Below are positions 3,665 through 15,005 of a stretch of DNA of 64,000 nucleotides, piece by piece. The notes beneath the pieces were generated by a model. It searched no databases. It was given only the letters and a program-made list of their open reading frames with translations, and was not told the DNA's origin. Origin of the DNA: Lactobacillus taiwanensis DSM 21401. Lineage in GTDB: Bacteria > Bacillota > Bacilli > Lactobacillales > Lactobacillaceae. The stretch lies in assembly GCF_001436695.1 (NCBI RefSeq), contig NZ_AYZG01000001.1, forward strand, positions 1 through 64,000, read 5' to 3'. Within the stretch, counting starts at the first letter, position 1, and each line of letters starts with the position of its first letter. Made by a program: the position numbers and the translations under genes.

Positions 3665-4278
3665 CTATACTCTTTTTATTTGTGACCAATCAGAAATAAT
3701 TTCATCTGCATAATGAGCAAAATGAACTTTTTTACATTTGCATATTTCAATTTTTCCCAGCTTTTTGTTAAAACAGGATTATCGTATAAGGCTACCTGTT
3801 CAATAGGATATAAGTCACCAACAAAAGCTTCACCATTATCTAAAATATAAGAAACTGAACAATTACTATGACCAGGCGTACCTAATATTTCCCCATCTAT
3901 ACCACATTTCTTTAAAAATTTTCTACTTTTAGTAATAGGTAATACTAACACTTGTTTATCTTTTATGGGCTCAAATTCACTATTTCTTTGTCTTTCAAAA
4001 ATATAATCTGACTGATGAATATATTTTAGCTGAGAGTCTAACACAACTAATTTAATACCATAATCAGCAAGAACTTGTGCTAATCTCATATGATCAGGAT
4101 GATAGTGTGTTATAAACAAATAATCAATGTTTTGAAGTTTTAAGTCATATTCACCTAATTTCTTAAAAAATCTAGATAATGTACCCACCCAATCCGTATC
4201 GATTAAAATTGTTTTCTTTGTACCCTGAATCAGATAACACTTCGTGTTGCCATACTTGATTTTAATGACTTTAACCAT
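3665..4278 (-). pseudogene. MBL-fold metallo-hydrolase with a frameshift near the 3' end
   Basis: The frame from 4278 encodes a metallo-beta-lactamase fold. It has the zinc motif THYHPDH (about residues 56-62), GTPGHSN (third ligand region) and the aspartate in FVGDLYP. Read straight through, it stops at 3676 after 200 residues with an atypical tail (ILLIMQMKLFLIGHK) lacking the last zinc-ligand histidine. Moving back one base in the A-run at 3727-3733 gives VHFAHYADEIISDWSQIKRV, ending at 3665. This restores a family-typical FAHY and gives about 204 residues. The run reads A AAA AAG in frame, a classical -1 slippery heptamer. It may be a one-base deletion, a sequencing error or real recoding. 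It probably lay directly downstream of rpsI before the element inserted. Confidence 0.7.
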
Positions 4279-4475: not shown

Positions 4476-4496
4476 TAAATATTAACGCTTTGAGAA
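4476..4496 (+). repeat. Left att core (21-bp direct repeat)
   Basis: Identical to 14604-14624 and containing TTAACGCTTTGAGAA, which on the minus strand is the end of rpsI (codons for FSKR and stop). Flanking bases differ on both sides, so this is the exact repeat limit. Confidence 0.92.
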
Positions 4497-4626
4497 CTTG
4501 TAGCTAGCAAAACTGGAACAATTATCCATTTTCAATAATTAATATCCATTCGATTCCATACTATTTTTGAATTAATTCACCATATAATGGAAGAAAACGG
4601 AATAAAATTCTTTAACTTGGAAAGCA

Positions 4627-4645
4627 TTGTGACCAATTGTAACCA
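4627..4645 (+). promoter_or_regulatory. Putative integrase arm-binding sites, left end
   Basis: TTGTGACCA and TTGTAACCA lie 10 bp apart, about 130 bp inside the left core. The right end has the same arrangement and orientation at 14543-14561. A 10-bp period on one face of the helix at both ends suggests arm-type sites for the integrase N-terminal domain. Confidence 0.6.
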
Positions 4646-4667
4646 ATTTAGGTCGATTATCTTACTT

Positions 4668-4698
4668 AACTTCATCCTTAGTTGGATGGAGTTTTTTT
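4668..4698 (+). terminator. Plus-strand terminator inside the left end of the element
   Basis: A 10-bp stem AACTTCATCC/GGATGGAGTT (one G-U pair) with a 6-nt loop runs into seven T. In the integrated state no plus-strand gene lies upstream of it. In the excised circle it lies about 300 bp downstream of int and would end that transcript. Confidence 0.7.
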
Positions 4699-4870
4699 GA
4701 TATAAAACAATTAAGAAATAGGTTTACAATATAATTCTTTCTATAAAGTAATTGATCAATAAGTTCAAACGCTTGCCTAAAATTCAATTATTTAACACCT
4801 CGTACTTGCGAGTTATTGCCAGTTCTATCAATGAAATTTTTGTCCTCTATTTTCTTGTCTAACACCATTT

Positions 4871-6076
4871 TTATCTTTCTTTACTAACTTTTGATTGAAT
4901 AAACCTTTTTATATAATCTGCAGTATTTTGTTCTGTACACATTTGCTCAACCGCATTAATAAACTGCGGTAGCTGTGCCCTATTCAATTCTGCCTCGAGT
5001 TTAGCTTTTGCGTATTTTAATTGGTCTGATGAAGGTCTCACAAAACTTCTAACGGTATCAAGATCTTCTTCAAGCAACTTACATATTTGTTCCTTCTGAA
5101 TTTCGTCTTTAAAAATTACTATATTTTTTAATAAAGTATCTTTCTGAAAAGCATCAGGACTAATACCTCTTTCTCTATTATTTAAGAAAAATTGTTCTAT
5201 TTCAAAATCTAATGAGTCCGTCAATAAGTACTGAAAATATAATGGCTTGTCACTCAAAGGATTCAAAGAACCTATATTGGGCGCCACTGTTAAAAATCTT
5301 ATTCCATCAAGCCAAACAACCATAATTTCTTCCAATATCTGTCCGTGATACATGAGTTTTAAAGTATCCCAATTAATCGTAATTCTTGTCTGATTGAGAG
5401 AATATGATTCTACAATATTACGTCCCTCATCATTGTTCTCTAGATACATGCAGTAATCAGGGTCAAATATATATCTAAAACCAACTTTATCAGTTTCAAA
5501 GTATTCCCAGTTATCTATTTCACGTAATCTAGCCTTATATATTTCTCTCGGAGGTAAATCTAAATGAAGTCTTTTCTTCCAAAGCCTTTCAACTTGAAAA
5601 TCTGTTGCAGTTCCATTAATAGGCGTTTCAATATTATTTAACCTACAAAAAATTTGACCTGGTCTAATAACATTCTTACATTGTTTTGGATGATACTCCT
5701 CATTTAAAAACACAGGAACATCATCACTATTCTTAACAATAATTACATCTATTTCATGATTATCTATTTTTAAACTTTTAACCTTAGTATTAGGAACAGA
5801 GTGATTAGCAATTGGTAAATCATTTATATATTGAGTTAATTTATCGGTAGTGAGTCTATTTTTATCACCATCTACACCTACAACTTTAAGATCAGAATCT
5901 CTAACTCCAATTATCAGATAACAATCCTCATGATGGGTTGTATTAACAAAAGCAAAGATATCTTTTATCATTTCATCTCGGTGATGTTTGTCATACCATT
6001 CTAGCTTAAAATCATGGTATACATCTTCATCTACTTTTATAAGACTATTGATCTTTTTTTCAAAATCTGTCATCAC
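4871..6076 (-). CDS. Schlafen/AlbA_2-domain protein paired with an MmeI-like enzyme
   Basis: This 401-residue protein has an N-terminal AlbA_2 (Schlafen, PF04326-type) domain, about residues 8-155. Visible landmarks are EDVYHDFKLEW, a helix with DIFAFVNTTH, and the strand YLIIGVRD. The middle (about 160-330) is not recognised. The C-terminal 60 residues are strongly helical and charged. AlbA_2 domains are linked to nucleic-acid binding, and some Schlafen proteins cleave RNA. The ATG overlaps the stop of the restriction-modification gene by 4 bp (6073-6076), so the two are probably translationally coupled. It is the last gene of the HTH-MmeI-Schlafen operon, and no terminator follows inside the element. 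A defence or toxin role is inferred from context. Confidence 0.75.
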   Translation of the reverse strand: MMTDFEKKINSLIKVDEDVYHDFKLEWYDKHHRDEMIKDIFAFVNTTHHEDCYLIIGVRDSDLKVVGVDGDKNRLTTDKLTQYINDLPIANHSVPNTKVKSLKIDNHEIDVIIVKNSDDVPVFLNEEYHPKQCKNVIRPGQIFCRLNNIETPINGTATDFQVERLWKKRLHLDLPPREIYKARLREIDNWEYFETDKVGFRYIFDPDYCMYLENNDEGRNIVESYSLNQTRITINWDTLKLMYHGQILEEIMVVWLDGIRFLTVAPNIGSLNPLSDKPLYFQYLLTDSLDFEIEQFFLNNRERGISPDAFQKDTLLKNIVIFKDEIQKEQICKLLEEDLDTVRSFVRPSSDQLKYAKAKLEAELNRAQLPQFINAVEQMCTEQNTADYIKRFIQSKVSKER

Positions 6077-8844
6077 TTTTCCTCAGCTATCAATTTTTCA
6101 TACATCTTAAACAAGTGAGCAACAGCATCACTTTCTGTAGTTCCCTTAACAGGTAACCCATAGGCTTCCATCACTGCACGATCATTATCTTGATGCGCCT
6201 TAAGCAATTCTCTTGGCATAGTTAACGGATCATAGAGATCTGCTAGAGAACTATCTGGATATAATGCACGTGCATCTAAGATAGCTTGAGCTGTTTTTTC
6301 AATTTTTTCTTTTTGCTTTTCCGTTGGAGAAGGCCATGGAAAATTATTATAAACAATTCTTGCAGAATAAGCATAATCACTTTTCATTCTTCCAGCCACC
6401 GTTCTCATCCATGCCATATGCATATTAGATTCTAATATTCCAAAGTCATATAAACTAGCATCCGGTAAAATTTGTGAATTAGTATTTGCAATAACATCTT
6501 TACTGACAAAAGCCATTGGAATATATTTTCTCTGCTGTGACGATACAACAGGAATCATTAAATAATCTACATTTGGTTGTCTATCTTCAGTAAATAAAGC
6601 CGGCATATCAGACCAACTTTGTGTACTTTTCTTTTTGCTTGCTAATCGACTAGCTTGTACCCTCTTTAAACGTTCCAATACTAATGGCATCTTTTTTAAT
6701 TCGGCTGGGCGACAATCTTTTAACCATAAACAATATCTATATCTATTATTTATTAGATCACTAGCACCCATATATCTTTTTATGTAAGCTTCTGTAATAG
6801 GTTCTTGAGTAATTAGTTCACTTTTTTCTATATCATTTAATATAAGATTCCCGCCATCTGTAGGTTGACTCCCTTTTCGTATAATTTTTCTGTCAGCTTT
6901 TATAGGCCTACTTCTAGAAGTAACAATTATATTTGGCGCAGATATTAAGTATGGACTAATATTATCTACCTTATTGACTAATTGTCCATCAAATATCAAC
7001 TTTGTAGACCGTTTAAGATATGAAAAGCCTATAATTACACAATGCACATGAGCTTGAGTCTTGGCCTCACTATTCCATACAAATGATCTATAAGCATAAT
7101 TAATATTTATTTTATTTTTCAACATAATACTCCAAAGTATTGGTACCTGTTGGCCTTGTGTTATTGAATTTGTAGATACAAAGCTAGTTTCTATTTTTGC
7201 ATCTTTCATATACATCATTGCTTTATAATACCAGCCAGATACATAATCTATCCCCTTTAACTTTTTAGATAAATGTGAAATATCTTCTTTTTGATCTTCG
7301 GATTCATATTTTGTTCCTATAAAAGGAGGATTCCCCATAACGTAGTGACAAGCATAGTTTGGAAGAACATCGTTCCAATATATTCTTAGTGCATTACCTT
7401 CATGAATATTTGTATATGTCTTTAATGGTAAGAAATCCCAATCGGCATAGAAAATATCTTTAGTTTCTTCTAGCATCTGACTTTCGGCAATCCATAAAGC
7501 AGTCTTTGCAACAGATACAGCAAAGTCATTAATTTCAATCCCATAAAATTGTTGAATAGATACCTTAATAATATCTTGAGCCTGTCCAACATCAAGAGAA
7601 GGATTAGGATAAATTAGCTTAATAGCATCATTTTCCAATCGCCTCAATTGTAAATATGTTTCAGTTAAGAAATTGCCCGAGCCACAAGCAGGATCAAAGA
7701 ATGTTAGATTAGCTAATTTATCTTGAAATGCACTAGCCTTCTTCTTTAATTTTGCCGGTTGCTTGACCTTCTTTATTTCATTCAATTCATCCTTCAATTC
7801 ATCTAAGAATAATGGATCAATTACCTTATGAATATTTTCTATAGAAGTATAATGCATCCCTCCTTGACGTCTAGTATCTGGGTTCAATGTTGATTCAAAT
7901 ACTGCACCAAAGATAGTAGGACTAATTTCAGACCAATCAAATTCATCACTTGCTTTGCTAAGTAATAAATCTCTCAATTCATCAGTAAATGGCGGAATCT
8001 CAATATTTTCATCTGAAAACATCCCACCATTAACATATGGAAATTGGGCTAATTTAGGTTCATCATCTTCAAGATATGGATCACGATCTTTAATTTTTGT
8101 ATCCAGTACTTTGAAAAGGTTAATCAAAGCTTTACGCATATGTCTGGCATCAAATTCTTCAAGATAATCATGAAACATATTCTTTTTACCGAAAATGCCA
8201 GCATCTTCAGCATACAAACAAAATACGATCCTTACACAAAGTTGGTTAATACTCTTTTGAGAATGTTCACTATCTGGATTTTTGTATTGATCTAAAAGTT
8301 CATCATAAATTTGACCAACTAGTTCACCCGCACTTAAGGAAACCTGTTTTTCTTTTTCTAGATGTTCATTACTCTTATCTACTAAGAATTCAAGTTGATA
8401 ATAGCTAGTTTCAAGGTCTTTTAATTCAATCTTCACCGGTTCTGAATTAGGATGTTCCATATCATAGATACGAAATTCTCTAAAGTTACAAGTAACAATC
8501 CAACGTGGTCGGCGTGAATATGGTAATGCAGCAGAATATCTTTGAGCCTGTTGAAAGGGTGTTAATAACCTTCCATCTGATTGTTTAATTGCCTTATCTA
8601 AATCCTTATTACTTCCTTTTTGTTCAATCATCACATGTGTTTGCTCAATGTAGCCATCAATAAAACTATCGTGTGATAATTTTACTTTTTCTTCAAACTT
8701 AATGAAGTTTTCTGGATTTTCAACACCTAAAACTTCACGCAACAAAGACAGCCAAAATGATTGACTGTCTTGTTTTTCTCTTCCACGATCTTTCCAATCT
8801 TGTATAAATTGTTTTGCATTTCTTTTTTGAGTTGTTACATCCAT
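6073..8844 (-). CDS. MmeI-like (type IIL) restriction endonuclease-methyltransferase fusion
   Basis: This 923-residue single-chain enzyme follows the MmeI/YeeA layout. A PD-(D/E)xK nuclease is near the N-terminus (Asp63, then Glu74-Gln-Lys76). A helical spacer spans about 150-370. A gamma-class N6-adenine methyltransferase has SAM motif I (FDPACGSGNF, 383-392) and catalytic motif IV NPPF (505-508). A target-recognition region lies at about 620-800, with a C-terminal helical part. Type IIL enzymes methylate one strand of an asymmetric site and cut about 20 bp away. The length matches MmeI (919). All key residues are present, so it looks active; specificity is not predictable here. It lies 23 bp after the HTH gene and overlaps the Schlafen gene. 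Confidence 0.88.
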   Translation of the reverse strand: MDVTTQKRNAKQFIQDWKDRGREKQDSQSFWLSLLREVLGVENPENFIKFEEKVKLSHDSFIDGYIEQTHVMIEQKGSNKDLDKAIKQSDGRLLTPFQQAQRYSAALPYSRRPRWIVTCNFREFRIYDMEHPNSEPVKIELKDLETSYYQLEFLVDKSNEHLEKEKQVSLSAGELVGQIYDELLDQYKNPDSEHSQKSINQLCVRIVFCLYAEDAGIFGKKNMFHDYLEEFDARHMRKALINLFKVLDTKIKDRDPYLEDDEPKLAQFPYVNGGMFSDENIEIPPFTDELRDLLLSKASDEFDWSEISPTIFGAVFESTLNPDTRRQGGMHYTSIENIHKVIDPLFLDELKDELNEIKKVKQPAKLKKKASAFQDKLANLTFFDPACGSGNFLTETYLQLRRLENDAIKLIYPNPSLDVGQAQDIIKVSIQQFYGIEINDFAVSVAKTALWIAESQMLEETKDIFYADWDFLPLKTYTNIHEGNALRIYWNDVLPNYACHYVMGNPPFIGTKYESEDQKEDISHLSKKLKGIDYVSGWYYKAMMYMKDAKIETSFVSTNSITQGQQVPILWSIMLKNKININYAYRSFVWNSEAKTQAHVHCVIIGFSYLKRSTKLIFDGQLVNKVDNISPYLISAPNIIVTSRSRPIKADRKIIRKGSQPTDGGNLILNDIEKSELITQEPITEAYIKRYMGASDLINNRYRYCLWLKDCRPAELKKMPLVLERLKRVQASRLASKKKSTQSWSDMPALFTEDRQPNVDYLMIPVVSSQQRKYIPMAFVSKDVIANTNSQILPDASLYDFGILESNMHMAWMRTVAGRMKSDYAYSARIVYNNFPWPSPTEKQKEKIEKTAQAILDARALYPDSSLADLYDPLTMPRELLKAHQDNDRAVMEAYGLPVKGTTESDAVAHLFKMYEKLIAEEK

Positions 8845-8867
8845 ACTGAAACTTTCTTTTTTAAATT

Positions 8868-9830
8868 CTATTTTCTTTTTCCAAATAAATCGTTATTTTC
8901 CAGCATTACTTTAGATGAACTTTTATAAAAAGTTTCATCCTCACTAATTCCCAATTTCGCCAATTCATTTAAATAAAATTCATCCAATTTTCCTACCCAC
9001 TCAATCAACAAATTTATTGCTGTATTAAAGCATAATATATTTTCATCTGTAGTGTCATTAAAAAGATACATTCTAAAATAATTATAATTGTAATTGTTAA
9101 CTTTCGACCTATCTTCATTCAACAAAAATTCCAAGTCAGGTCTTAAATTTTCAAAGCTTTTACTTAGTAAATCGAACATAAAATTTGGTGGAAATAAATA
9201 TAAATTATTTTTTTCATTCGTCATATGAAGATTGGTATCAGAATATTCAAAAAACGTGTATGGAGGTTGTGGTCTGGTTAGTATCTCATAACTATGACTT
9301 TCATCAATCTTTCCTTCTATTAATCTGTTTAGTGTAATTTTATTAAAAATATCTTTTCTATCCTCTTCGGTACGAATTATTAAAGATATTAAATAATCTA
9401 AATTTAGGTAATTTTTTGACCTATTATTACTGGATATTACAAAACCAATATTATACATATTTAGTGAAATATTTTTATCACCAATATCGAATGTTTTAAT
9501 GAAATCAGCAATATAATTGTAAACTTTCATTAAATATTCAGTAGCATTAGCAGGTATAAGAAAAAGGCTTTCAATATAATCAATTACACAAATTTTGCAT
9601 AAAGCTTCTCTAATTATTGGCTCTTTGGGTCGATTTCCCCTTCTCCAACTAAAAATATTTGAATTACCACTCTTCATTTCTGAAGTATCAATTGGTATCG
9701 CAAATTCTTTAGGAATCATTTGATTCATTTTACGCGCCATATCATTTTGTGAATCTGAATGACCTCGAAGATATTCATTTATAAATCTTGGAAAATTATT
9801 ATTTGGTATTGGATACTTAGGTTTAGGCAT
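8868..9830 (-). CDS. HTH protein leading the restriction/Schlafen operon
   Basis: This 320-residue protein has an N-terminal XRE-like helix-turn-helix pattern, about residues 25-80: DMARKMNQM, then NIFSWRRGNRPKEPIIREAL. The remaining 240 residues are helical, rich in Asn and aromatic residues, and not recognised. It is first in a three-gene minus-strand operon and divergent from the mobility module, with only 127 bp between. It could therefore regulate both. A very strong GGAGGAGG site precedes its ATG. It is longer than restriction controller proteins (about 80-100 residues), so a sensor or effector role for the C-terminal part is possible. Function is unproven. Confidence 0.6.
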   Translation of the reverse strand: MPKPKYPIPNNNFPRFINEYLRGHSDSQNDMARKMNQMIPKEFAIPIDTSEMKSGNSNIFSWRRGNRPKEPIIREALCKICVIDYIESLFLIPANATEYLMKVYNYIADFIKTFDIGDKNISLNMYNIGFVISSNNRSKNYLNLDYLISLIIRTEEDRKDIFNKITLNRLIEGKIDESHSYEILTRPQPPYTFFEYSDTNLHMTNEKNNLYLFPPNFMFDLLSKSFENLRPDLEFLLNEDRSKVNNYNYNYFRMYLFNDTTDENILCFNTAINLLIEWVGKLDEFYLNELAKLGISEDETFYKSSSKVMLENNDLFGKRK

Positions 9831-9957
9831 ATTAATAAACCTCCTCCGTCAAAAGTTGTGATTATAAAGATGTACGTGTAAAAGAACCTCTTTCAAATTA
9901 AAGTAGATAGTGAAGATGAGCTGATCTTAAAAAAATACTAGAAAGAAGTTTTCAACA
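9831..9957. promoter_or_regulatory. Divergent control region of the element
   Basis: The 127-bp spacer separates the minus-strand HTH-RM-Schlafen operon from the plus-strand mobility module. On the minus strand a TATAAT -10 is seen near 9863-9868 without a good -35. Both operons must start here. No clear palindromic operator was found by eye. Confidence 0.45.
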
Positions 9958-10269
9958 ATGAAAATTAAACGTAATTCAGGTTATTCAGAACCTACAGCTA
10001 AATTATACATTGATTCTCATGAATCAATCTATTCTTTATCAAATGAACTCATTGCCCAAGTAAAATGGGTAGATCAAAAGCCTACAGATGAAATCATCGG
10101 CTATCAAGCTTGGTTTATTGGGGAGAATACTGAACCTTTTAAAGTGAAATTCACAGATAGAATTTCACTTCCTCCTAAGTTCACTAAAGTTAAATTTCAG
10201 ACCCTAGAAGCGTGTGAAGTTGGTAATAACGTATACTTTCGAGCAAAAGGAATTGAGGTACAAAAATGA
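9958..10269 (+). CDS. Small unknown protein at the start of the mobility module
   Basis: This 103-residue, soluble-looking protein has many short beta-strand patterns (AKLYIDSH, QVKWVD, VKFQTLEA, VYFRAKGIEV). It has no recognised motif. It overlaps the start of the FtsK-like gene by 4 bp (10266-10269), so they are probably coupled. Its position matches the small accessory genes (such as Tn916 orf22/orf23) found before the FtsK-like gene in Gram-positive conjugative and mobilizable elements. A relaxosome accessory role is possible but not shown. Confidence 0.6.
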   Translation: MKIKRNSGYSEPTAKLYIDSHESIYSLSNELIAQVKWVDQKPTDEIIGYQAWFIGENTEPFKVKFTDRISLPPKFTKVKFQTLEACEVGNNVYFRAKGIEVQK

Positions 10270-11348
10270 TAAGAGATATAGAAGATATCCCTCGCTATTT
10301 GACTCAATGCCTTAACATGTCATTGGATCTGGCAGGAGAAACTAGCTATACAAATAGCTTTAAGGTGAAAATATTGAAAAATGGTTTTTTGTTTATTCCA
10401 AGATTACCAGCTAGCTATATTTTAGATACTGATTTATATCAACGTATTTATAAAATAGCGAATGCTTCTCTTTATCCCTACAAATCTTTATTAAAGCAAT
10501 CTACGATGTATTTAGTAGAAACAGATGAATATGATTTTGGCAGCAAAAGAGCCTTCTACTATCCATGGACAAATGTAAGCAGAAGGCTTCAAATAACCGA
10601 TATGAAATCATACCTTAACTCTAATACTAATAAATATATAGATATCATGCAAAATGTTTCTATTAATTATGATAAAGCAACTTCAATTTTGATAGCAGGA
10701 AATTCAGGAGCTGGTAAATCTTATGCCTTAACTTACTTTTTGACAATTCTTCATCTAAAAAATATATCCGATCTGTATATCATTGATCCTAAGTGTGATG
10801 TGCCAGCTCGGTGGTCACACATATACGGTTTAGATAGTAGAACGATATTTCCAACTGAGGAGATGTCTAATAGTGATTTTGTGAGTCGGTGTAGCGATAT
10901 ACTCTCAAAATTAGTTAAAATTATTTATCAACGCCAAAGGATCTTGTACCAAGACCCTCATCATGAATTTAAACATATAACTATATGTATAGATGAGGTA
11001 TTGGCTTTAACTGACGGCCTACCAAAGAAAATAAAAGATAGCTTTTTCTCCTTACTGTCTCAAATTTCTTTACTTGGTAGAGCTACACGAGTTCATCTAC
11101 TTTTAGTAAGTCAGCGCTTTTCAAATGATGCGTTACCCATTGCCGTAAGAGAACAGGCCAACGTTTGCTTGCAACTTGGTAATATCAACAAGAAAACAAC
11201 TCAATTTCTATTTGATATTGATCCAGACGGTATTCTTATCCCTACAGGAAAAGGTACAGGTCTCTTTCAAATCACAGATAATGAACATCCTTTTCAGGTG
11301 TTGCCATTATTAACGCCTACATACAGTTTGAAAGAAGGTATACTATGA
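10266..11348 (+). CDS. FtsK/SpoIIIE-type DNA-translocating ATPase (TcpA-like coupling protein)
   Basis: This 360-residue protein has a Walker A loop GNSGAGKS (145-152), a Walker B strand ITICIDE (238-244) and a sensor-like LLLVSQR near 283-289, in the order of FtsK/HerA ATPases. No membrane segment is seen, while the next gene (4-bp overlap, 11345-11348) encodes a two-TM protein that could anchor it. In Tn916-like and mobilizable elements such proteins bring relaxase-bound DNA to the mating channel, or help relaxase access the origin. Its place directly before the Rep/relaxase gene supports that role. Confidence 0.8.
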   Translation: MIRDIEDIPRYLTQCLNMSLDLAGETSYTNSFKVKILKNGFLFIPRLPASYILDTDLYQRIYKIANASLYPYKSLLKQSTMYLVETDEYDFGSKRAFYYPWTNVSRRLQITDMKSYLNSNTNKYIDIMQNVSINYDKATSILIAGNSGAGKSYALTYFLTILHLKNISDLYIIDPKCDVPARWSHIYGLDSRTIFPTEEMSNSDFVSRCSDILSKLVKIIYQRQRILYQDPHHEFKHITICIDEVLALTDGLPKKIKDSFFSLLSQISLLGRATRVHLLLVSQRFSNDALPIAVREQANVCLQLGNINKKTTQFLFDIDPDGILIPTGKGTGLFQITDNEHPFQVLPLLTPTYSLKEGIL

Positions 11349-11878
11349 GCCCGATATCCAATACATATAAACCAGCACCAATAAAATTTTATTTACCACT
11401 AGTATTAGTATTCAGTACAAGTTTACTGATTATAATCAATTGGTTTATTTATAAGTTAAAAGGTCTTATTCTGCAACATCTCGTAATAGCTACCTTTCTG
11501 TTATTAGTAATAAGCATGGTATTTATTTTTTACCAAATTATAACTAAAGAATTTATTTCTTATATAAAATCTTTGATTTTAACAAAGAATATTCGTCAAA
11601 TGCTAGTCATTCCTGCAGAGACTAATAATTACACAGGACAGACCAAAATAAATAATGTCAATAATATTTATAATTCCTGCTTAAAATACACTTATGCAGA
11701 ATATAAAGAAAATAAATTGTATATTTGTTTGCGCATTCCCAATAATCTAACAGCATCTAAACTACTTGAAGATAGGATGCAAAAACTGTGGGAAGCAATT
11801 GATAGTAGTCAGAAGGAATATTCATTTTCAAATTTAGAAAGACAGGGACATTACTATATCCGATCAGGAAGAAAATAA
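11345..11878 (+). CDS. Two-transmembrane protein between the coupling ATPase and Rep
   Basis: This 177-residue protein has hydrophobic segments at about 13-33 and 40-63 and a soluble C-terminal part with YIRSGRK at the end. No domain is recognised. It overlaps the FtsK-like gene by 4 bp. It may be the membrane anchor of the coupling ATPase; this is inference from gene order. A long stem-loop follows right after the stop. Confidence 0.6.
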   Translation: MSPISNTYKPAPIKFYLPLVLVFSTSLLIIINWFIYKLKGLILQHLVIATFLLLVISMVFIFYQIITKEFISYIKSLILTKNIRQMLVIPAETNNYTGQTKINNVNNIYNSCLKYTYAEYKENKLYICLRIPNNLTASKLLEDRMQKLWEAIDSSQKEYSFSNLERQGHYYIRSGRK

Positions 11879-11881
11879 AAT

Positions 11882-11948
11882 AGTGCGAGTGCCGTAGCCC
11901 GCGTGCCCTGTCAAGGGAAAACGCGGAAGCGTAGGCACTCGCACTTTT
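11882..11948 (+). terminator. Long three-tier stem-loop before rep (terminator and/or origin)
   Basis: A perfect 12-bp stem (AGTGCGAGTGCC / GGCACTCGCACT, 11882-11893 and 11934-11945) encloses a 5-bp stem (CGCGT/ACGCG) and a 4-bp hairpin (CCCT-GTCA-AGGG). TTTTATT follows. The T run fits a terminator for the ftsK operon. The bulged multi-tier form also fits single-strand or transfer origins of rolling-circle elements. Confidence 0.6.
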
Positions 11949-11954
11949 ATTCAA

Positions 11955-12045
11955 GTATCCCGTGTAAAAATGCAATGTATCCCTATCATACTGGGGCTGA
12001 GAGCTTGTTATCAGCCCCGACAACTAATTGTGTAAAACGTGTAAA
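11955..12045 (+). other. Candidate replication/transfer origin upstream of rep
   Basis: Two copies of GTATCCC lie 22 bp apart (11955-11961, 11977-11983). An 8-bp hairpin GGGGCTGA / TCAGCCCC (11993-12000, 12011-12018) has a 10-nt loop GAGCTTGTTA. Three copies of GTGTAAA are also present (11962, 12030, 12039). Iterons plus a hairpin with a single-stranded loop, just upstream of an HUH Rep gene, match the bind/nick layout of rolling-circle origins. The nick site itself is not recognised. Confidence 0.4.
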
Positions 12046-12063
12046 GGAAGGGGAAAACAAAAT

Positions 12064-13164
12064 GTGAAAAAGGCAATTAGAGCCAGACAATTCATGTACA
12101 CTCAGGATCTTAACCATTTACCATTTAAAAAAGAAGATTTAAAGACAATATTAGAAAAATCCTCTGCCGAAGAATGGGCCTACATACTTCATAATAAAGA
12201 TATTGACAAAGATGGAAAAACTATCAGACCTCATTTTCATGTAGTTCTGAAGTTTAAGGATGCAAAAACAATTTCTCGTATTGCTAAATTATTCAATGAC
12301 AAACAAGAATATATTGAAGTTTGGAGAAACACGATTGGTAATGCATATAGTTACCTAATTCATGAAACTAGGAATGCCAAAGATAAGCACCACTATAGTC
12401 CTACTGAAGTTATATCATCCTTTGATTTTGAAACGAGAATCAAACAGATTAGGAAAAAAGTTGCTAAACCATCTAAGAAAGATATAGACGACTTAATAGA
12501 CGATTATTCTAACGAAATTTTGACAAAAACTGAACTTCAAGAAAAAATTGGAGTTCTTGAAATGGCAAAACACAAAACTTTATTAGATCATATTGAGGAC
12601 ATCTTAGCCTATAAAAAGCATCAACAATTTCTCCAAGACTTTAAAGGACAAAAATGCACAACTTATTGGATTTATGGAGAATCAGGGATTGGTAAAACAA
12701 AAATGGTTCGTGAAATTCTTGAGCAACTTCATCCAAATAATTTTGTAATTCTCGGTTCACAACGTGACCACTTTCAGGAATACCGTGGAGAAGAATTTAT
12801 AGTCATCAATGATTTACGTCCCCGTGACTATGAATACGGTCAATTGCTGACTCTACTTGATCCTTGGGAAATAGATAAGATGGCACCTGCAAGGTATCAT
12901 GACAAATATCTCAATGCACGTGCAGTTTATATCACTACTCCATATAGTCCTATAGCCTTTTACCAAGGAGCAAACATAGTAAATGGTTTAATAGATTCAT
13001 TTGAACAATTAAATAGGAGAATCATTACGCTACATTTAACAGAAGATAATTACGATGAGATGAAAGCTGATCTAATAAAAGAGGACCAGATAGCCGAAGC
13101 AATTTGGAAAATAAAAAAGCAAAAAAATACCAGTCATACTGATAGTGAGAAAAATAATGATTAG
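12064..13164 (+). CDS. HUH endonuclease-helicase Rep protein / putative relaxase
   Basis: With the GTG at 12064 as start, the product has 366 residues. AAAGGAAGGGG lies 10 bases upstream; the open frame reaches back to a TTG at 12028, but the site itself lies inside that extension. The N-terminal HUH nuclease has PHFHVVLKF (His57, His59) and Tyr95/Tyr97 in AYSYLIH, like Rep_2 (PF01719). The C-terminal part has Walker A GESGIGKT (205-212) and FIVIND (245-250), a superfamily-3-type helicase related to PF00910. This nuclease-helicase fusion is the plan of CRESS-DNA virus and some plasmid Reps. It is also used as relaxase by certain streptococcal mobilizable elements. It probably nicks the origin of the excised circle. 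Confidence 0.82.
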   Translation: MKKAIRARQFMYTQDLNHLPFKKEDLKTILEKSSAEEWAYILHNKDIDKDGKTIRPHFHVVLKFKDAKTISRIAKLFNDKQEYIEVWRNTIGNAYSYLIHETRNAKDKHHYSPTEVISSFDFETRIKQIRKKVAKPSKKDIDDLIDDYSNEILTKTELQEKIGVLEMAKHKTLLDHIEDILAYKKHQQFLQDFKGQKCTTYWIYGESGIGKTKMVREILEQLHPNNFVILGSQRDHFQEYRGEEFIVINDLRPRDYEYGQLLTLLDPWEIDKMAPARYHDKYLNARAVYITTPYSPIAFYQGANIVNGLIDSFEQLNRRIITLHLTEDNYDEMKADLIKEDQIAEAIWKIKKQKNTSHTDSEKNND

Positions 13165-13222
13165 CAACTGGTAATATATTTAATTCCACTTTTGTTTCTT
13201 AGATAATTTTAGGAGAAACTTT

Positions 13223-13411
13223 ATGGCTAAATTACTTACTCGTGAAGAAGCTTCAAAGTACATCGGTATCGATCCGAAAACTTTTGATAAAGTTTTTCGT
13301 GCTAATCCTGACTTTAAAAGATTTCCACTAAGTGACCATAGCGAGCGTTTTACTATCGAAAGTATTGAAGACTTCATAAAACAAAAAGAAACAACTTTAA
13401 AGAAAATTTGA
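13223..13411 (+). CDS. xis: Excisionase (helix-turn-helix, MerR/Xis-like)
   Basis: This 62-residue basic protein begins LLTREEASKYIGIDPKTFDK, the pattern of excisionase/HTH_17 DNA-binding domains, where an N-terminal winged helix-turn-helix binds near the att site. AGGAG precedes the ATG by 6 bases. It sits between rep and int, the usual place for the directionality factor. A hairpin terminator separates it from int, so the two may be expressed unequally. The opposite-strand frame at 13180-13377 is a shadow. Confidence 0.8.
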   Translation: MAKLLTREEASKYIGIDPKTFDKVFRANPDFKRFPLSDHSERFTIESIEDFIKQKETTLKKI

Positions 13412-13414
13412 TTG

Positions 13415-13468
13415 AAGGTCGACCATCTGCTACATTAAATCTAGTAAGATGATCGACCTTTTATTTTT
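13415..13468 (+). terminator. Terminator/attenuator between xis and int
   Basis: A 14-bp stem, AAGGTCGACCATCT with AGATGATCGACCTT (one G-U type mismatch), closes an 18-nt loop and runs into TTATTTTT. It lies inside the 5' extension of the int open frame, which supports the downstream start of int. Antitermination or a second promoter would be needed to express int. Confidence 0.8.
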
Positions 13469-13487
13469 GAAAGGACGATTTAAATAT

Positions 13488-14540
13488 ATGGCAACTATTG
13501 AAGAACGTGGCTCTTCCTACAGAGCTAGAGTAACAATTTATCAACATGGAAAGCGTGATTATTTAACCAAAACATTTAAAACAGAAAATGAAGCTAAAGT
13601 TTGGGGTACTACTCTAGAACTTGAAAAAGCAAAAGGTAAAGCTATTGCTCATCAAAATACACTTTTTAAGGATTTTTATTACTTATATGTGCATACCATC
13701 AAAATTAATGATGTTAGAAAAGCTACATTCAATAATTATGTAAAAGCTGGATTAGTAATTAATAATCTCTTTCCTACTGCCAAACTAGGAAAACTAGATG
13801 ATGTACAAATGCAAAAAATTTTAGATAAGTATGGAGAAACACATTCTAAAAAGACTGTAGTTGAATTATTAAAGAAAATTAGGACAGCTCTTCGTTATGC
13901 TTACGCAAAAGGATACATTTATAATGACTTTGCTAGTCTGCTTAAAGCTCATGGTAAGGAATTACCTAAACGTAATAAAGCTTTATCAATGTCTGATTTA
14001 ACTAAGTTAAAACATTATTTACTTGAACATACAGACGATGAATTTAACCTAATGGTTTTACTTGAAATTAGTACTGGTTTACGACGTGGTGAAATTTTGG
14101 GTATCAAACCAGAAGATGTGCATTATGATGGCCAATATTACTGCGTTGAAGTAAGAAGGTCAATAAGTCCGACTACTGACGACACTAAATTAAAAACTAA
14201 ACATTCTAGACGTAGTGTAACTATTCCAAAAGATGTTTATGACCTATTAAAAACAATACCAAGTAAAGATTCGGGCTACCTATTTGATTGGTTTAGTTTC
14301 AAGCAATCTGAGCTACTTAAAAAATTACTCAAAAAAATAGGTATCCCCTCAACCACATTTCATGGTTTAAGAGATACCCACGCTTCTTTTTTATTCAGTA
14401 ATAATATTCCTTTATCCTATGTTAGCAGAAGATTAGGACATGATTCAATCTTAACTACTGAAAAATATTATTTAGAATTAATGCCAGAAAAAAAGCACTC
14501 GCAAGATGCGAATGCCTTAAATCTATTGGCTTCCCTATAG
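13488..14540 (+). CDS. int: Tyrosine site-specific integrase targeting rpsI
   Basis: From the ATG at 13488 the protein has 350 residues. An AAAGGA site lies 13 bases upstream, and the longer frame from 13449 would run through the terminator stem. An AP2-like arm-binding N-terminus (SYRARVTIYQHGKRDYLTKT) is followed by a SAM-like core-binding domain (about 55-150). The catalytic domain carries Arg199 (TGLRRGE), His292 and Arg295 (FHGLRDTH), His318 (RLGHDS) and nucleophile Tyr327 (TTEKYY), the full R-H-R-H-Y set. It lies 63 bp from the right att core and is convergent with rpsI. It catalyses integration and, with the excisionase, excision. Confidence 0.93.
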   Translation: MATIEERGSSYRARVTIYQHGKRDYLTKTFKTENEAKVWGTTLELEKAKGKAIAHQNTLFKDFYYLYVHTIKINDVRKATFNNYVKAGLVINNLFPTAKLGKLDDVQMQKILDKYGETHSKKTVVELLKKIRTALRYAYAKGYIYNDFASLLKAHGKELPKRNKALSMSDLTKLKHYLLEHTDDEFNLMVLLEISTGLRRGEILGIKPEDVHYDGQYYCVEVRRSISPTTDDTKLKTKHSRRSVTIPKDVYDLLKTIPSKDSGYLFDWFSFKQSELLKKLLKKIGIPSTTFHGLRDTHASFLFSNNIPLSYVSRRLGHDSILTTEKYYLELMPEKKHSQDANALNLLASL

Positions 14541-14542
14541 TA

Positions 14543-14561
14543 TTGTGACCATAGGTGACCA
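14543..14561 (+). promoter_or_regulatory. Putative integrase arm-binding sites, right end
   Basis: TTGTGACCA and AGGTGACCA lie 10 bp apart, 43 bp from the right att core, in the same orientation as the pair at 4627-4645. Confidence 0.6.
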
Positions 14562-14603
14562 TTTGAAGTCTCGAAAACGTTGATATAACAACATTTCTGA
14601 TAG

Positions 14604-14624
14604 TAAATATTAACGCTTTGAGAA
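14604..14624 (+). repeat. Right att core overlapping the rpsI stop
   Basis: Perfect copy of 4476-4496. On the minus strand it covers the codons for the last residues (FSKR), the TAA stop and six further bases, so integration leaves the S9 protein intact. Confidence 0.92.
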
Positions 14625-15005
14625 TTGTGAAGCTTTGCGGGCTTTCTTCAAACCTGGCTTCTTTCTTTCCTTCATTCTTGGGTCACGAGTTAACATGCCA
14701 GCCTTCTTAAGTGGACCACGGAAATCTGGGTCAACTTCAAGAAGTGCACGTGCAATACCTAAACGAATTGCACCAGCTTGTCCTGAGAAACCACCACCGT
14801 TAACATTAACTTCAATGTTGTATTGACCTTCAGTTTCAGTTAATGCTAATGGTTGCTTCATATCTTGAACCAAGTTAGGGTATGGAATGTACTTAGTTAC
14901 GTCTTCTTTGTTAATGGTAATTTGACCATTGCCTGGTACTAAACGTACGCGGGCAACAGAATCTTTACGACGACCAGTTCCAGCGTAAGCTGCTTGTTGT
15001 GCCAT
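14610..15005 (-). CDS. rpsI: 30S ribosomal protein S9
   Basis: This 131-residue S9 protein has [19 protein letters not shown] at the start and the conserved basic tail ending SKR, which reaches the P-site tRNA in the 30S subunit. It is cotranscribed with rplM (13-bp gap). Its last codons form the att core of the integrated element, and the reading frame is preserved. Its native terminator now lies 10 kb away, at 4431-4458. Confidence 0.97.

Follow-up and report, generated by a model that had tools for sequence, protein, structure and literature searches.

A type IIL restriction enzyme and an overlapping Schlafen gene as candidate anti-phage cargo of an rpsI integrative mobilizable element

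Three genes lie in a row on the minus strand near the start of contig NZ_AYZG01000001.1 of Lactobacillus taiwanensis DSM 21401 (assembly GCF_001436695.1), the first 64,000 nucleotides of which are the window analysed here. They encode a 320-residue protein (8868..9830), a type IIL (MmeI-like) restriction-modification enzyme of 923 residues (6073..8844) and a Schlafen-type protein of 401 residues (4871..6076). An earlier reading of the DNA made without database searches (the sequence-only reading) had taken them for a three-gene operon of a helix-turn-helix (HTH) protein, an MmeI-like enzyme and a Schlafen-domain protein, and proposed an undescribed defence system; which of the three genes act together, and to what effect, is the question that this locus raises. 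The layout is as that reading had it, with three open reading frames, 23 bases between the 320-residue gene and the enzyme gene in the window sequence, and a 4-base overlap, GTGA, at the junction of the enzyme and Schlafen genes. An in-frame ATG one codon downstream, with GAGG 7 nt before it, offers an alternative Schlafen start and would shorten the overlap to 1 base. The enzyme and Schlafen genes form a tidy two-gene pair of which the 320-residue gene is not a member. We judge it evenly balanced whether this pair is a two-gene anti-phage cargo, carried by an integrative mobilizable element (IME) in rpsI, in which type IIL restriction would be backed up by a Schlafen RNase.

By its sequence, the middle gene encodes an MmeI-type (type IIL) enzyme of full length with its motifs intact. 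A Pfam search matched all five MmeI domains, residues 7–919 are collinear with the solved MmeI structure (PDB 5hr4, E 1e-195), and the protein also matches a PADLOC type IIG family. The nuclease residues D63, E74 and K76 are present, leaving the D..ExK motif intact, as are the methyltransferase motifs DPACGSGNF at 384 and GNPPF at 504, and the earlier naming of the enzyme, with its D63, K76 and NPPF, is thereby confirmed. Nuclease, spacer, adenine methyltransferase, target recognition domain and C-terminal domain follow one another in one chain, which is the type IIL architecture. Enzymes of this type cut at a distance of about 20 bases from their site, of which one strand is methylated. What sets the gene apart from that of MmeI is its overlap with a Schlafen gene.

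The product of that second gene matches SLFN_AlbA_2 (E 1e-11, 45.8 bits against a cut-off of 25.3 in the Pfam search) and, near full-length, the PADLOC family PDC-S50 (model PDLC05032, E 5e-105, profile positions 1–380 of 387), so that its description as an AlbA_2/Schlafen protein holds. We aligned 35 such proteins, leaving out those shorter than 340 residues (L088-L091, L093) and those with no phmmer match (L097, L099, L102-L104). E17, D22 and K24 are each conserved in 32 of the 35, N45 and G57 are invariant (35/35), and at position 60 there are 28 D and 6 E. Compared with the PDB, a profile of 21 members places E17, D22, K24 and D60 on the columns E, E/D-F-K and G-V-x-D, both for SLFN14 (E 0.13) and for CbCash (E 2e-4); by alignment and profile columns together, the three-carboxylate site E17/D22/D60 of the Schlafen RNase superfamily is conserved. 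In SLFN13, a mammalian Schlafen described as a tRNA/rRNA-cutting enzyme, mutations in the equivalent triad (E205, E210, D248) reduced or abolished nuclease activity (PMC5862951). Because the conserved acidic residues fall on the SLFN14 and CbCash columns, and in view of the SLFN13 triad mutants, we read the window protein as a predicted RNase with E17, D22 and D60 as its acidic residues; it probably cuts RNA.

On the reading that we favour, the single-chain enzyme would methylate one DNA site and cut DNA without the mark, and the Schlafen nuclease, encoded next, would have its translation begin at the overlapping start codon. The latter would form a second layer, an RNase acting most likely on tRNA or rRNA and idle while restriction works; were the enzyme inhibited or bypassed, the nuclease would be released and the infected cell would stop translating. 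The logic would be that of PrrC, which is held in check by the type I restriction enzyme EcoprrI. Both cases couple an RNase gene to a restriction system, with a proposed abortive back-up role; they differ in that the PrrC nuclease is unrelated to Schlafen and in that, for the window, we infer that the guard is the type IIL enzyme itself.

In favour of this reading, the overlapping order of enzyme and Schlafen gene is kept in L001, where the two proteins are only 69% and 50% identical, respectively, to those of the window (L001 is a 4.9-kb contig that does not cover the region ahead of its enzyme). Searches that started from the Schlafen gene gave three other loci with both genes in other arrangements: in L095 the enzyme is followed after 53 bases by the Schlafen gene and then by a GmrSD gene, in L002 a Schlafen gene stands 74 bases before a distant MmeI-like enzyme, and on plasmid L067 three annotated genes lie between the two. 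In the enzyme tree the window, L001 and G286, a genome with a related element, form one group (100/100), within which L001 and G286 are sisters (100/99). The Schlafen tree, from which four distant proteins (L096, L098, L100, L101) were left out, makes the window and L001 sisters (100/97) and places the L095 protein elsewhere. The simplest history would have the pair already present early in the window/L001/G286 group and the pairing later lost from G286, with L095 and L002 having paired separately.

Positional evidence from the whole family shows that PDC-S50 is strongly tied to restriction genes in general. We counted DNA methylases around PDC-S50 genes in 23 genomes sampled irrespective of any PDC-S50 association. 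The threshold was a PDC-S50 match of roughly 100 bits, which 21 of the 395 order-sample genomes reach and, besides G000, two of the 398 from the phylum sample; weaker AlbA_2 matches were excluded. Five of the 23 have a methylase no more than 2 kb away, against 0.16 expected; the corresponding figures are 8 against 0.34 at 5 kb, 8 against 0.63 at 10 kb and 12 against 1.19 at 20 kb. The expectation presumes random placement and ignores the clustering of defence genes in islands, which tempers the contrast. If G088, whose nearby methylase is broken by stops, is set aside, the count within 5 kb is 7/23. Presumed housekeeping methylases (frames of about 280, 340–360 and 385–415 residues, weak RumA-type matches) and a few fragments were excluded by hand; contig breaks in fragmented genomes could lower such a count but not raise it, and the Schlafen gene is broken or split in five of the genomes (G204, G244, G250, G291, G316).

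Neighbours were named where they had been scanned against families or matched by phmmer to reference proteins. A type ISP enzyme neighbours the PDC-S50 gene in L074 and type III restriction in L080 and L083; nearby genes elsewhere include a type II methylase/nuclease pair (L066), a C5 methylase (L076), an Eco57I methylase and DEAD helicase together with a PDC-S31 gene (L084), AbiH (L094) and an AbiC/AbiP-like protein (L072), and loci such as L069, L073 and L077 have no recognised defence gene among the neighbours. Several different restriction enzymes have the PDC-S50 gene close by on the same strand. Recurrence beside type IIL, ISP, type II, type III, C5 and Eco57I+DEAD systems suggests that the protein may be a plug-in RNase that backs up restriction. 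A bolder version would make PDC-S50 Schlafens a plug-in suicide module, recruited independently by unrelated restriction systems (IIL, ISP, II, III) as a general guard. It would monitor the condition of the restriction enzyme, or sense cut DNA, and respond by destroying tRNA, much as a Schlafen version of PrrC that serves more than one type of restriction; this we put forward as a doubtful, if possible, extension.

Relatives of the Schlafen protein occur in 24 of 72,556 plasmid records and in none of 50,697 phage records. In viral contigs the single protein as query found no relative and the 21-sequence alignment found 17 (L167-L183), 16 of them with an open reading frame found; two of the 17 (L171, L174) have methylase-like neighbours. 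Two further arrangements were seen among the loci. Schlafen-led restriction operons (L083:9425-10603, L084:9251-10231) have a gene of 326–392 residues before the methylase, PDC-S31-like in L084 and with no match in L083, and on two plasmids (L067:6941-9102, L068:6282-8281) the PDC-S50 gene overlaps a DUF5677 gene, possibly a second type of Schlafen pair.

A good deal weighs against a joint mechanism for the window pair. None of the 30 other MmeI-like loci adjoins a PDC-S50 gene within the stretch examined, these being the order-sample matches whose locus was retrieved, 16 with some kb of flank per side where the contig allowed and 14 with about 1.5 kb. MmeI-like matches occur in 39 of the 395 order-sample genomes, some as mere fragments, and PDC-S50 matches in 33, many of them weak; both are present in four (G000, G217, G300, G316) against 3.3 by chance, the MmeI match of G300 and G316 is a fragment, and the two genes of G217 lie 13 kb apart. 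The element of G286 is of the same kind and carries the sister enzyme without a Schlafen gene, and from this and the 30 loci it follows that the enzyme does not need one; likewise, the Schlafen gene can stand alone, since 15 of the 23 genomes have no methylase within 10 kb of it. The PDC families were chosen by guilt-by-embedding in defence systems (PMC12988326), so that some of the association with restriction reflects how the family was chosen. Modelling of the Schlafen domain, which the sequence-only reading had suggested, did return a Schlafen, the N-domain of SLFN13, as the best Foldseek match (E 0.036), on a model of moderate confidence built from four sequences, with a mean predicted local distance difference test score (pLDDT) of 61; it is poorest in the catalytic N-terminal domain (blocks of 30–54), and no PDB match reached E 0.001, for which reasons the fold evidence is weak by itself. 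Nuclease activity, RNA target, gating by the enzyme and abortive outcome are all predictions.

The adjacency and co-occurrence counts and the absence from G286 suit the main rival explanation, in which the two genes have one promoter and one cargo slot of a defence-carrying IME in common but the type IIL enzyme and a stand-alone Schlafen defence protein each act alone; so does the other cargo of related rpsI elements described below. Mere sharing of cargo space would not call for a translational overlap in two diverged loci, the window and L001, nor for tight same-strand spacing to several different restriction enzymes, and we consider independent action a substantial possibility that falls short of even. 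A partnership specific to MmeI was rejected on the adjacency and co-occurrence counts. Of the coupling proposed earlier, what survives is the overlapping order, recurring once, and the proximity of the family to restriction in general; the Schlafen gene is largely sporadic beside MmeI-like genes, the outcome that the sequence-only reading had itself named as counting against its proposal. The Schlafen-type protein could instead be a regulator or DNA-binding accessory of restriction with no nuclease effector function. In plasmid records its relatives are annotated as ATP-binding, DNA-binding or RNA-binding-domain proteins, and its C-terminal region of about 220 residues, better modelled than the catalytic domain (pLDDT mostly 64–90, with dips to 42–56), has no significant fold match in a model search of the PDB; set against this, the acidic positions aligned with the catalytic triad of SLFN rank with the most strongly conserved of the 35 proteins, and we think the accessory role improbable. 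Least probable is that all three genes work together as a new defence system under an HTH sensor, for which their common strand and the 23-bp spacing speak and against which the distribution of the 320-residue family stands.

That family is present in three of the 395 order-sample genomes, the window's, G009 (75% identical) and G263 (33%), and no relatives were found among the plasmids, phages and viral contigs searched. The G009 and G263 copies lie 112 and 138 bases from, and divergent to, relatives of the element's 103-residue and FtsK genes (127 in the window), the FtsK relative of G009 being split over two frames. Genome searches of G009 and G263 gave no match to the type IIL enzyme or PDC-S50, and in G009 a cadmium-resistance gene and an ArsR gene adjoin the 320-residue relative. 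In G286 the enzyme stands behind a 324-residue gene unrelated to the 320-residue gene. Since its relatives sit in related elements that have neither enzyme nor Schlafen gene, and an unrelated gene precedes the enzyme in G286, the 320-residue gene is, on the placement of its relatives, part of the element and outside the restriction unit. The three-gene system was therefore set aside, two of the three genomes with the family being without the other two genes, and the ordered co-occurrence of the three families that had been looked to for support did not appear. The HTH label, given by eye, was likewise dropped: up to E 1 nothing in Pfam, PADLOC or NCBIfam matches the protein, and its single-sequence model is uninformative (mean pLDDT 33). 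It is perhaps a regulator.

A separate observation concerns MmeI-like enzymes that do have partners of another kind. A second group, about 35–39% identical to the window enzyme (L162, L120, L121, L122, L127, L163, L164, L002), is accompanied by a PDC-S32-type gene of about 240 residues overlapping the enzyme end, by a DEAD-box helicase of about 640 residues, or by both. A downstream partner is shared in 7 of the 30 order-sample loci as well as in L002, which tells against the earlier statement that MmeI enzymes normally work alone; the group looks like a separate multi-gene defence system.

Parts of the window pair are already described, namely type IIL enzymes, PDC-S50 as a listed defence candidate and back-up Schlafens with bacteriophage exclusion (BREX) systems, and to call the locus undescribed was thus too strong. 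The source of PDC-S50 is the Payne et al. 2024 preprint, as cited in PMC12988326. The term itself was not found in the literature searched, and the literature matches listed included neither a description of a Schlafen paired with a type IIL enzyme nor a paper treating Schlafen and MmeI together. Prokaryotic Schlafen relatives have only recently been tied to phage defence (work cited in PMC12839542), and the same paper reports close linkage of Schlafen RNases with BREX and related systems across at least 1017 taxa and proposes that they serve as suicidal back-up effectors. The window shares with these a Schlafen nuclease gene beside methylation-based defence (PMC12839542); it differs in the C-terminal region without assigned fold and in having a one-gene type IIL enzyme as partner. 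PrrC is described as a suicidal tRNase in PMC5862951.

The pair is the cargo of a 10.1-kb IME in the 3' end of rpsI, in keeping with the earlier suggestion of a mobile element. A 21-bp direct repeat at 4476..4496 (left att repeat), a copy of the rpsI 3' end, matches 14604..14624 exactly, and this right att repeat overlaps the 3' end of rpsI (coding sequence 14610-15005, minus strand); the att core recurs exactly at L165:4844-4864 and with three mismatches at L149:6424-6444. On the plus strand the element holds a 103-residue gene (9958..10269), divergent from the 320-residue gene by 127 bp and with relatives that adjoin those of the latter in L147 and L148, an FtsK/SpoIIIE-related protein, likely a TcpA-type coupling protein (10266..11348; PF01580, 24.4 bits against a cut-off of 24), a 177-residue gene with relatives in L148, L149 and L165 (11345..11878), a rolling-circle Rep/relaxase with Rep_OBD and RNA_helicase domains (12028..13164; Rel_PF01719-PF00910) and a tyrosine integrase (13449..14540; PF00589, E 6e-16). 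Just outside the left repeat, at 3676-4278, lies a gene for a 200-residue metallo-beta-lactamase-fold protein (PF00753).

To judge by its genes, the element fits an rpsI-type IME of class IME_4, the TcpA call resting on a borderline PF01580 match. According to PMC5357655 and PMC5704250, this class has a Rel_PF01719-PF00910 relaxase, a tyrosine integrase and, in some members, TcpA (described in PMC5357655), with streptococcal examples at rpsI. The window element is like these in integrase, rpsI 3' end, relaxase and a likely TcpA, and differs in its Lactobacillus-like host and its cargo of type IIL enzyme and Schlafen gene.

Close relatives of the integrase lie beside rpsI in three further genomes of the genus sample (n=61), G286 (90% identical), G798 (79%) and G799 (71%), the G799 copy being broken and its element also missing genes. 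The G286 element carries an MmeI-like enzyme 72% identical to the window's without a Schlafen gene, that of G798 a type ISP enzyme and that of G799 an apparent type IIG enzyme in two pieces; because the cargo differs in this way, the slot can be said to carry interchangeable restriction enzymes. In the place of the Schlafen gene, G286 has a 134-residue gene of no assigned family (L149:7045-7449) with a one-base overlap with the MmeI-like enzyme. Across the rpsI IMEs (L149, L165, L166 and window 4476-14624), one-chain enzymes (IIL, ISP and apparently split IIG) occupy one slot, each behind a different small gene, and the rpsI IMEs of one genus look like a cargo-swapping defence element.

With a compact DNA-cutting chain and a Schlafen on a 10-kb element, the locus would offer a simple system in which to test the restraint of a Schlafen by restriction, and, because PDC-S50 recurs beside several kinds of restriction enzyme, the idea of a guard may be tested across partners.
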